Below are positions 8,362-37,453 of a stretch of DNA of 64,000 nucleotides, piece after piece (within the stretch, counting starts at the first letter, position 1; every line of letters begins with the position of its first letter). Location of the stretch: assembly GCA_024638915.1 (NCBI GenBank), contig JAHEJJ010000002.1:62001-126000 (forward strand), written 5' to 3'. Made by a program: the position numbers and the translations under genes. The notes under the pieces were generated by a model. That model saw only the letters and a program-made list of their open reading frames with translations. It searched no databases and had not been told where the DNA came from. Source of the DNA: Robiginitalea sp. (lineage in GTDB: Bacteria > Bacteroidota > Bacteroidia > Flavobacteriales > Flavobacteriaceae).

Positions 8362-8616
8362 AATTTTATTAAGTTGACACCACCCTTTGTCGATGAAAAT
8401 GAACGCTTCATATTTTTCACAACAGCTATAGCCCGGTTGACAACAAAAATTTAGTGGAAAGCAGTACTCGACATATATTTACCCTGTAAACAAGTGAATA
8501 TCCCGTTAGTAGACGGGCCCCAAATCTACCAGAACTTAATTTAAAGTGCCTGCCCCAAATCTGGCACTTAACCTAAAAAGGTAAAATACCTAACCAAATT
8601 TTACAAACCTGCTTAG
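8362..8616. other. Intergenic region between hflX and the DUF3078 gene
   Basis: No coding frame of convincing quality is seen. The only structure is a 7-bp stem (8544-8550 with 8563-8569) around a 12-base loop, without a T run, lying before the strong terminator at 8617-8646. It may be a long 3' untranslated region of hflX or decayed sequence. Confidence 0.4.
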
Positions 8617-8646
8617 AAAAAGCCCTGAATTTCTTCAGGGCTTTTT
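8617..8646. terminator. Bidirectional terminator between hflX and DUF3078 gene
   Basis: A 13-bp perfect stem (8617-8629 and 8634-8646) with a 4-base loop has a GCCCTGAA core flanked by A runs on one side and T runs on the other. It sits between two converging genes and can stop transcription from both. Confidence 0.85.
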
Positions 8647-8673
8647 ATTTATATCGATTTTCTTTCGGTTCTG

Positions 8674-9600
8674 TTAGAAAGAGTAACTAAGCCCCAATGT
8701 CCAATAAGTCTGCAATTTGTTATCGATATTATCGAACGTTGCACCGGTATTGCCCAGCGTGTTGATCTCATAATTCAGCGCTTCCTGTTTGTTGTCGCGT
8801 AACCCGAAGTCGAACCCAAGTCCTATTCCCTTCCATATGGTATAGGCAAACGAATTGGTCCAGGTCCAGTTGCTCAGATTATTGCTTTTGTAGCTCATAA
8901 AGGCCGAAAGGTTCGTTTTAAATTTAATCGCTCCGATACTTTTTATATAATCGGCTACAATCTTGGCACCAAAAGATGAATCAAATATGACATCATCGCT
9001 GCTGAACACAAAATTGTAGTTGGCAGGGTGAATCACCACCACCAGGTCCGTGATCGGGGTCCATGTTCCACCTACACCGACATCGAGATAACCCGGATCG
9101 TTAAAATTATTGATGAGTGTGGTCCTGTACTCGGCCAACCCGGACACCGCGAATTTCTCACTCAATTTACGACCGTACAGCGTTGTAATATTAAAGACAT
9201 CGGTCGTCGCTCTAAAATCGGGATCATCAAGTGGATTGTCCTTGTCGTCGAGCTTTACCCATTTCAGATTCAGGTTGGCTGAATTCCTCCAAAAAAACTT
9301 TTCTTGAAGCAAATTAGCATAGGAATTTACCGTAAAACCGATATTTCCGGCAGAGTTGTTAGGAATTCCCTGTGCATACCAGTTGTTGAACTCCGAAAGA
9401 TCGACCCCTATAGTTCCCAGGGCCCCGATTTTCCATCCGGGCAAGGCATCTATTTGTGCCTGAATGGCATCGGCTCTGCCCTGAATAGCCGAAATAGAGT
9501 CATTTTTTGCCTTTTTAGCAGTAAGAAGTTCTTCCTTGGTCTGTGCCAGCAGAACAAGAGGGCAAATCAATAAGGTTAGAATTAAAACTACTTTTTTCAT
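8674..9600 (-). CDS. DUF3078 domain exported protein
   Basis: 308 residues from the ATG at 9600. An in-frame start upstream would add a non-signal-like extension, while the chosen start gives a clean signal peptide (KK, then a hydrophobic stretch ending LLAQ). A short coiled-coil-like segment follows, then repeated amphipathic strands ending in SYSF, as in an outer-membrane beta-barrel. The WRNSANLNLKWVKLDD region matches DUF3078, a Bacteroidota family of unknown function. It is the last gene in line after the suf cluster, but its own -7 box at 9628-9635 suggests separate or additional transcription. The shared terminator with hflX follows. Confidence 0.8.
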   Translation of the reverse strand: MKKVVLILTLLICPLVLLAQTKEELLTAKKAKNDSISAIQGRADAIQAQIDALPGWKIGALGTIGVDLSEFNNWYAQGIPNNSAGNIGFTVNSYANLLQEKFFWRNSANLNLKWVKLDDKDNPLDDPDFRATTDVFNITTLYGRKLSEKFAVSGLAEYRTTLINNFNDPGYLDVGVGGTWTPITDLVVVIHPANYNFVFSSDDVIFDSSFGAKIVADYIKSIGAIKFKTNLSAFMSYKSNNLSNWTWTNSFAYTIWKGIGLGFDFGLRDNKQEALNYEINTLGNTGATFDNIDNKLQTYWTLGLSYSF

Positions 9601-35851: not shown

Positions 35852-36445
35852 CTACAATTTAGGGATATCCAAGCGCATTAACCAATCGGTCTGTTTATCT
35901 TTTCCAATATAGTAGGGATGTTCTTTGAACTTATGAAAATCAAGGCTTTGGTAAAATCGGATCGCATCCCTGTTTTCTTCCCAAACCCCTAACCAGAGGT
36001 AGTTAATGCCTGCTTTACTCGCCGTGTCGATGATTTGGCTAATCATCCAGTTTCCCATTTTCTTACCCTGGTACTCTTTCCGCACATATATGCGTTCTAT
36101 CTCGAGGGATTCGGGGTCCGATATATCCGTTTGAGCGGTCGCGGCATTAAGCTTGAAATATCCAACGGGGGTAGCATGGCTATAAACCAAATAATAATAG
36201 ATACTCTGATTTTTCAGTTCATTCTCGATCTTCTCACGATCGAAAGCTTCCTCAAGATAGGCCTGAAAGTCATTGGGGTCGTTGAGGTGTTGAAAAGCAT
36301 CTATAAAAGTTGATCTTGAAATCTCCAACAATACATCGAGCAATTCGGTTGTGCATTTCAAAAGGTTCAGATCCACGTTGATTCCTTTGCCGAAAAATAC
36401 TAAAAGATTTCGTTCTTTTATTGGGCAGTCTAACACCACTGGCAT
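35852..36445 (-). CDS. GNAT family N-acetyltransferase
   Basis: Up to 197 residues from the ATG at 36445. The first 25 residues do not look like the family, so a non-ATG internal start nearer residue 24 is possible. The acetyl-CoA motif A is ERIYVRKEYQGKKMGNWMI, followed by LWLGVWEENRDAIRFYQSLDF, the typical motif B region. The substrate cannot be predicted, but the type resembles protein or small-amine acetyltransferases. It lies 17 bases upstream of the serine hydrolase start on the same strand, so the two may be co-transcribed. Confidence 0.82.
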   Translation of the reverse strand: MPVVLDCPIKERNLLVFFGKGINVDLNLLKCTTELLDVLLEISRSTFIDAFQHLNDPNDFQAYLEEAFDREKIENELKNQSIYYYLVYSHATPVGYFKLNAATAQTDISDPESLEIERIYVRKEYQGKKMGNWMISQIIDTASKAGINYLWLGVWEENRDAIRFYQSLDFHKFKEHPYYIGKDKQTDWLMRLDIPKL

Positions 36446-36491: not shown

Positions 36492-36517
36492 AAAAAAAGC
36501 AAACCCAAAAGTTTGCT
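36492..36517 (-). terminator. Terminator downstream of the 35-residue small gene
   Basis: A 7-bp stem (36498-36504 with 36511-36517) with a 6-base loop is followed on the minus strand by a run of seven T. It lies 26 bases after the small gene's stop and nothing else on the minus strand ends here. Confidence 0.7.
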
Positions 36518-36542
36518 CGTGTTGTTCTAAAATTTTATTTGC

Positions 36543-36650
36543 TTACAGCATGAAGAGTTTCTTAGCCAGCATAATGATCCCGCTTAGGAATTCATTTCTG
36601 TAGATCTGTACTTCTTCTTCAACTGGCGTATGGTCTATCTGGGCTTCCAT
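36543..36650 (-). CDS. 35-residue small protein, unknown
   Basis: An ATG at 36650 opens a 35-codon frame ending in TAA at 36543-36545. The product begins acidic (EAQIDHTPVEEEV), then has YRNEFLSGIIMLAKKLFML, an amphipathic or weakly hydrophobic helix with two lysines. I recognise no family. Support for a real gene is the context: a promoter-like TTG-N20-TATATTTA about 46 bases upstream, a terminator 26 bases downstream, and no overlap with any other gene. It lies between the CoA transferase operon and the GNAT gene. A small membrane-associated peptide is possible. Confidence 0.5.
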   Translation of the reverse strand: MEAQIDHTPVEEEVQIYRNEFLSGIIMLAKKLFML

Positions 36651-36696
36651 AGCGATTTAGAGTTTATAGGTTAAACGGGGTTAAAAATCAAGAAAA

Positions 36697-36727
36697 TAAA
36701 TATAGGATATATTAACGTATCGATCAA
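36697..36727 (-). promoter_or_regulatory. Candidate promoter of the small gene
   Basis: On the minus strand, TTG (36727-36725) and TATATTTA (36704-36697) are 20 bases apart, close to the Bacteroidota TTG-N17-23-TAnnTTTG arrangement with one mismatch. The predicted start lies about 40 bases before the small gene's ATG. Confidence 0.45.
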
Positions 36728-36799
36728 CGGATTGTTGTGAAGATTTAAAAATATGTGGTGAAAAATCAAAAGCGGTGTCGTTCATCGAGAAAATCATAT

Positions 36800-37453
36800 T
36801 CAGATTTCCATTTCCGGAACCTCGTCCTGAACGATCAATATACCTTCGGTGGCCTCCTTAATGGCTTCTAAACTAATACCCGGGGCCCTTTCTAATAGTT
36901 TAAAACCTTGATCGGTAACTTCGAGAACGGCCAGATTAGTCACGATCTTCTTTACACAACCGACTCCGGTGAGGGGTAGTGTACATCGCTTCAGCAATTT
37001 TGATTTTCCCGCTTTGTTAGTGTGCATCATGGCTACGATGATATTCTCGGCCGAGGCCACGAGATCCATCGCGCCGCCCATCCCTTTAACCATTTTACCC
37101 GGGATCTTCCAGTTGGCTATATCCCCGTTTTCAGCTACTTCCATGGCGCCAAGGATAGTAAGATCGACATGTTGCCCTCGGATCATCCCAAAGCTAGTGG
37201 CTGAATCGAAAAAAGAGGCACCCGGTAAGGTGGTGATCGTTTGTTTTCCTGCATTGATGATATCCGGGTCTTCTTCGCCTTCATAAGGAAAAGGGCCCAT
37301 GCCCAGCACTCCATTCTCGCTTTGAAATTCGACACTTATATCCGATCGTACAAAGTTGGCCACCAGGGTAGGAATGCCTATTCCAAGGTTTACATAGTAG
37401 CCATCTTTAACTTCCCGGGCTATTCTTTTTGCAATTCCGTTCTTGTCTAGCAT
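36800..37453 (-). CDS. scoB: 3-oxoacid CoA-transferase subunit B
   Basis: 217 residues. GIGIPTLV and the catalytic Glu 46 in QSENGVLGMGP define the beta subunit of class I CoA transferases. The GAMEVAENGDIANWKIPGKMVKGMGGAMDL stretch is typical of ScoB. With subunit A it moves CoA between succinyl-CoA and acetoacetate or another oxoacid. Its ATG overlaps the TGA of scoA by one base (TGATG), so translation is coupled. Confidence 0.92.
   Translation of the reverse strand: MLDKNGIAKRIAREVKDGYYVNLGIGIPTLVANFVRSDISVEFQSENGVLGMGPFPYEGEEDPDIINAGKQTITTLPGASFFDSATSFGMIRGQHVDLTILGAMEVAENGDIANWKIPGKMVKGMGGAMDLVASAENIIVAMMHTNKAGKSKLLKRCTLPLTGVGCVKKIVTNLAVLEVTDQGFKLLERAPGISLEAIKEATEGILIVQDEVPEMEI

Follow-up and report, generated by a model that had tools for sequence, protein, structure and literature searches.

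We find, from comparison with its relatives, that a 35-codon open reading frame in the window (the whole 64,000-nucleotide stretch of Robiginitalea sp. DNA that we analyzed) is a genuine small-protein gene, one that carries no name in the libraries searched. We consider it likely that this microprotein gene is transcribed alone, is activated by a LytTR regulator within an RNA-rich regulon, and encodes a membrane-located peptide that tunes the envelope. An earlier note on this DNA had proposed a complete small transcription unit at this place; all the features that it named were found, on the minus strand, and homologues, pN/pS, and the conservation of terminator and operator agree with it. The frame encodes the peptide MEAQIDHTPVEEEVQIYRNEFLSGIIMLAKKLFML, and the locus reads, from upstream to downstream:

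36800..37453, minus strand: scoB, 3-oxoacid CoA-transferase subunit B, upstream neighbor outside the unit (TIGR02428, 323.4 bits against a cut-off of 243.55)
36754..36762, minus strand: distal operator repeat TTCACCACA, differing from TTCACAACA at one position and 21 bp away from the proximal repeat
36733..36741, minus strand: proximal operator repeat TTCACAACA, of a two-repeat operator present in 57 of 63 short-form members
36697..36704, minus strand: -7 box TATATTTA, beginning 37 nt after the proximal repeat begins
36651..36692, minus strand: predicted 42-nt leader, its start site placed from the -7 box
36543..36650, minus strand: microprotein gene, 35 codons plus stop (open frame, homologues, pN/pS)
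36492..36518, minus strand: intrinsic terminator with T-tract (7-bp stem with seven T, 36492-36517)
35852..36445, minus strand: GNAT acetyltransferase, downstream neighbor outside the unit (PF00583)

When used alone, pattern scans came close to chance level, with five promoter-like sites against 4.4 expected and three terminator-like sites against 1.7 expected, so that comparison with relatives had to decide. Such comparison establishes the coding status of the frame, its conservation, the promoter architecture, the terminator, and the linkage between operator and regulator gene. The peptide has one match in its own genome and, at E<1e-4, homologues in 10 of 99 relatives, and a profile of this short form, built from ten members, found it in 69 of the 397 Flavobacteriaceae genomes that were sampled (E<=2.3e-7). 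The homologue search that the earlier note had proposed thus found the frame kept in many Flavobacteriaceae genera together with its flanking genes, and the frame withstood the refutation test set in that note. The synonymous-site check that it had also proposed gave changes that are mostly synonymous: the pooled pN/pS was 0.29 over 990 pairs among 45 ungapped members and lay below 1 in all 990 pairs, compared with 0.72 and 1.63 in shifted-frame controls, and nine synonymous changes and one nonsynonymous change separate the frame from that of the congener. The 35-codon frame at 36650-36543 is therefore real, conserved, and under purifying selection. A chance open frame, which the near-chance level of the promoter and terminator patterns would favor, is ruled out with virtual certainty by this conservation, by synteny, and by pN/pS (a homologue in 69 of 397 genomes, and a ratio of 0.29). 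The KLFML end is invariant across ten aligned members. For the comparison of loci we used a 67-member set chosen by K-LFM tail and ATG patterns, from which tail conservation cannot be judged, and outside which three loci fell by this pattern requirement (L061, L070, and L077); removing four long-form or second-copy rows (L011, L051, L055, and L057) left 63 short-form members. No Pfam or NCBIfam family matched the peptide at E<=1, a Pfam search with the ten members returned two single matches (E 0.13 and 0.15), and a PDB search found no relative (best E 0.44).

The surroundings of the gene are conserved as well. scoB lies within the same locus for 56 of the 63 short-form members, and a PBP1A gene is in the locus for five of the seven without scoB. 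The terminator described in the earlier note, a 7-bp stem with seven T, is present, and a terminator-like hairpin follows the frame in 62 of 63 short-form members. The arrangement seen here, a short frame and a terminator followed by a co-directional GNAT gene, would also suit a leader peptide that attenuates the downstream acetyltransferase gene; we regard attenuation as very improbable, given that the C-terminal sequence of the peptide is conserved and is no run of one codon, and that in 16 of the 63 short-form members the GNAT gene had no match in the locus sequence retrieved, which spans 1.5 kb or more to either side. As had been stated, 354 bases separate scoB (36800) from the GNAT gene (36445). 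Two direct repeats, at 36762-36754 and 36741-36733, lie upstream of the interval that the earlier note considered and were overlooked there.

These repeats change the picture of the promoter. The earlier note had proposed a TTG, 20 nt, and a box, and both elements are present at that distance (TTG at 36727-36725, TATATTTA at 36704-36697), but the TTG is not conserved, as only 7 of 48 members have one that starts 21-25 nt before the -7 box. We therefore dropped a simple -33/-7 promoter; what is conserved instead is a two-repeat operator together with the -7 box. The operator consists of two 9-bp repeats, TTCACAACA-N12-TTCACAACA, with a period of 21 bp, upstream of the -7 box. At four or fewer mismatches of 18 and a spacing of 21, it occurs in 57 of 63 short-form promoters compared with 0.4% of shuffles, and other repeat spacings between 16 and 27 were found in only 3-25 members. 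In 48 of these 57, the first base of the -7 box follows that of the proximal repeat at a distance of 37 or 38 nt. Six of the 63 short-form members have no operator pair (L066, L068, L069, L073, L079, and L086), including two, L079 and L086, that come from regulator-bearing genomes (G354 and G165). Across whole genomes, the operator with exact spacing and at most one mismatch was present in 40 of 40 microgene genomes, in 1-12 copies each, and a reversed-pattern control gave three matches altogether over the same 40. A -7 consensus of TAnnTTTG has been reported in a flavobacterium (PMC9723704, available part). According to the available part of a study of Streptococcus mutans HdrR/BrsR (PMC6193735), LytTR regulators use two 9-bp direct repeats with a 12-bp spacer (11-13), just upstream of the promoter, and the conservation of these repeats between species is low. 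The microgene operator matches this geometry (9-12-9), and its repeat TTCACAACA is unlike the letters given in that paper, ACCxCTTAy.

Which regulator might act on this operator is suggested by the position of one gene. A regulator with a REC domain (PF00072) and a LytTR domain (PF04397) is encoded next to a TPR-HisKA_2 kinase gene, as assigned by Pfam at one locus, L149; in the genome studied here the regulator gene lies on contig C80 (81614-82363, locus L150) and not beside the microgene. We kept the best 80 of 279 loci from the regulator scan and analyzed 78, two being too short (L172 and L211). At four or fewer mismatches, 68 of these 78 loci have the operator no more than about 600 nt 3' of the regulator gene, and at two or fewer mismatches 66 do, as opposed to 2 and 0, respectively, on the opposite strand. 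The ten loci without a nearby operator are all from Arenibacter. The regulator is present in all 69 short-form genomes (only residues 60-250 in G378), and the microgene was found in all 28 regulator-bearing named genomes tested; the regulator-bearing genera include Zobellia, Maribacter, Arenibacter, Muriicola, Eudoraea, Cellulophaga, Robiginitalea, and Allomuricauda. Among the 99 relatives, 12 carry a regulator orthologue (E<=1e-50), namely the 10 microgene genomes, G058, and G031. Operators at two or fewer mismatches number 6-14 in the 10 microgene genomes, 17 in G058, and 4 in G034, and 0-3 in the remaining relatives (2 in G031), in which the reversed control gives 0-4. G058 is a fragmented genome with the regulator and 17 operator-like sites in which no microgene match was found. 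Because the regulator and the short form both occur in related genera, their co-occurrence partly reflects shared ancestry, and we consider the physical linkage between operator and regulator gene to be the stronger argument. A loose search of the own genome with the regulator as query returned 22 candidates, which means that related regulators exist and that the assignment rests on this linkage.

We infer operator binding and activation: the REC-LytTR protein, a conserved two-component response regulator, probably binds the two 9-bp repeats 21 bp apart and activates the promoter, from which the microgene would be transcribed alone. Operators near the regulator's own gene are shared with the HdrR/BrsR systems as the available part of that paper describes them (PMC6193735). 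In contrast to those systems, the repeat letters here are different, 28 nt lie between the repeats and a -7 box of the Bacteroidota type, the operators precede small RNAs and a microprotein, and the REC-LytTR regulator stands beside a TPR kinase, whereas there the regulator is paired with a membrane protein (PMC6193735).

This regulator probably also activates several small noncoding RNAs, which would make the microprotein one output of an RNA-rich regulon. One such RNA gene lies in the window itself:

8416..8650, plus strand: sibling noncoding RNA gene, with operator at 8416-8445, -7 box at 8474-8481, and a predicted RNA from 8486 to about 8648

This gene, a member of a multicopy family, has a terminator, is flanked by the gene for a GTP-binding GTPase (presumably HflX) and a DUF3078 gene, and contains no frame of at least 30 aa on the RNA strand. 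Rfam 15 gave no match at gathering score in the whole window, and with a relaxed threshold 22 matches at 8380-8700, every one under its gathering score. When we sorted 198 sites with operator and box, 59 were microgenes, 33 belonged to RNA A, 11 to RNA B1, and 25 to RNA B2, and 70 were left unclassified by the patterns, some of which are located within ordinary genes or ahead of them. Of 34 extracted RNA A sequences, 33 are 133-194 nt long and the last overran its terminator; RNA A occurs in up to three copies close together. Its conserved blocks are linear: GTAATTAAGTGATAGTGTT-ACCCCAAATC, AACTTAA, a second CCCCAAATC, and then CCAAATTTTACA-AACCTACTTA before the terminator; CCCAAATC blocks are carried by the small RNAs of the clade. 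A consensus structure from 22 sequences (RNAalifold) contained a three-pair terminator stem only. RNAs B1 and B2 are shorter than A and lie between the REC-LytTR regulator gene and the TPR-HisKA_2 kinase gene. At L131, L150, and L160-L239, the REC-LytTR regulator gene is followed by operator-driven small RNAs and the TPR-HisKA_2 kinase gene, apart from the ten Arenibacter loci, where the operators are missing. The 13 operator loci compared with Rfam gave one match, Flavo-1 (RF01705, 57.5 bits), elsewhere in L138 and on the other strand (1385-1462, minus), at a distance of some 600 nt from tandem RNA A genes. We compared the small RNAs with Rfam only and set them by description beside FopS of Bacteroides thetaiotaomicron, which, in the available part of its report, likewise comprises several paralogous small RNAs with a common conserved sequence (PMC11697453). 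The present set differs from FopS in its occurrence in marine Flavobacteriaceae, its LytTR-type operator, the tandem arrangement of some copies, and one sibling transcript that codes for a protein (PMC11697453). No published account of this regulator, operator, or peptide was found among the matches listed (titles and abstract starts). The evidence suggests a small-RNA regulon of the LytTR kind, which we did not meet in the literature searched, among the matches listed, and whose likely regulator, operators, and outputs are now identified by sequence.

The leader of the microgene resembles these RNAs in short blocks. Of the 59 microgene leaders, 28 contain CCCAAAT, a small-RNA motif (shuffles: 1.6 on average, at most 5); of 1125 control stretches of sixty bases upstream of long frames, 16 do. 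AACCTA stands within the final 30 nt in 25 of the 59 leaders, compared with 16 of 1125 control stretches. RNA A contains both motifs as blocks, and some leaders can be aligned with its two ends, which suggests that leaders and RNA A share either an RNA origin or an RNA-binding partner. Dual-function small RNAs such as SgrS/SgrT combine a short transcript with a conserved small frame, as the microgene does, with base pairing being hypothetical here. It is possible, and we put it forward tentatively, that the microgene transcript belongs to the small-RNA family as well as encoding a peptide, and that its RNA part regulates targets. The frequencies of both blocks, the alignment of some leaders with both RNA A ends, and the presence of CCCAAAT in the 120 nt before 10 of 15 long forms (in tandem units in some, by eye) speak for such a dual function, but the own-genome leader carries CCCC and AACCTA without CCCAAAT, the common blocks are short and might serve as a signal for translation or for the binding of a protein, and RNA A has no consensus structure beyond its terminator. 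A broader model, which we advance just as cautiously, would have the LytTR system of marine Flavobacteriaceae act chiefly via multicopy small RNAs; the microgene would be one such RNA that gained or kept a peptide and so has a dual RNA-peptide output, and the older RNA-peptide form would persist elsewhere in the family, in genera where another direct-repeat promoter drives it.

A long form of the microprotein, first recognized among weak matches of the short-form profile, extends the family. It has 34-44 aa, an N-terminus that differs from that of the short form, and the tail LTKK(L/I/V)FM(L/F), with LTKK-FM in 15 of 15 long forms read; of the 20 loci inspected, L042-L044 gave none clearly. 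The long-form loci contain scoB in 12 of 15 cases and PBP1A without scoB in the other three. A long-form profile matched 116 further genomes of the 397 (E<=1.1e-6), two of these matches containing a stop and one (G317) stopping short of the tail. Either form was thus matched in 185 of 397 sampled Flavobacteriaceae genomes, which adds a protein family without a match in the Pfam and NCBIfam searches. In an order-wide sample of 196 genomes there were 13 matches at E<=0.01, ten from the same family (one with an internal stop) and three from other families (all with internal stops). We tested 70 of the 116 long-form genomes for the regulator and found a close orthologue in none of the 70, and in three a distant relative only (39-43% identity). 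The long form exists without the LytTR regulator, and the peptide would therefore predate this control. The long-form microgenes L039-L056 are preceded by a repeat of another kind, of about 21 bp (TGTATTTCATCGATT ... TGTTTTTAATCTGATT, by eye), which is perhaps another LytTR-type site.

We infer the location and role of the peptide from its sequence and its neighbors. Single-sequence AlphaFold2 predicts a helix over residues 9-34 (mean pLDDT 86.5), and the charge is -5 over the N-terminal 20 residues and +2 over the last 15. Of the acidic start and amphipathic helical end described in the earlier note, the acidic start and the predicted helix stood; the hydrophobic moment of this peptide does not reach significance, being marginal over the last 15 residues (p 0.06) and clearly short of it over the last 18 (p 0.49). 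Elsewhere in the family, p fell below 0.05 for 19 of the 67 members and for 8 of the 15 long forms. A membrane-bound helix is plausible on this modeling, as is the membrane-active or regulatory peptide that the earlier note suggested. A small hydrophobic helix with +2 over its last 15 residues could also be a secreted antimicrobial or toxic peptide, but to this we give little probability: the peptide has a single match in its own genome, it keeps the same neighbor genes across many genera, and its N-terminal 20 residues carry -5. The microprotein is most likely LytTR-controlled, helical, and membrane-associated, and the peptide, with its acidic start, long helix, and KLFML end, would most likely be located at the inner membrane or at a membrane protein and tune an envelope function. 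Small membrane peptides such as SpoVM and MgtS, likened to it here by description, likewise have tens of residues and one helix. Envelope-acting neighbors are the PBP1A gene and a gene for what we take to be a GldH-like lipoprotein, and operator-like repeats stand before SPOR-like, ECF sigma, and DUF6747 genes (names partly by eye). The PBP1A and lipoprotein neighbors and the operator-like repeats are compatible with an envelope role and are no proof of one.

Some operator-like matches were rejected. Those before a 124-aa protein, LRR proteins, and others were not counted as the same promoter, as their -7 box lies at another distance or is missing. The operator pair (0-1 mismatch) precedes the protein of about 124 aa in L101, L109, L110, L113, L120, and L132, without a -7 box at the usual distance, and the protein of L109 has no Pfam match. 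Second microgene copies occur between metK and a gene for a CocE/NonD-type hydrolase (names by eye) in L057, L061, L268, and L269, the copy in L057 having no operator upstream. In L279 and L280, from two genomes, an ECF sigma factor gene (by eye) has a degenerate operator and a -7 box at the usual distance. Operator-like repeats also stand before small membrane proteins in L112, L276, and L270 (DUF6747 by Pfam in L112, the others by eye), and the gene in L112 adjoins an OmpA-type gene (by eye).
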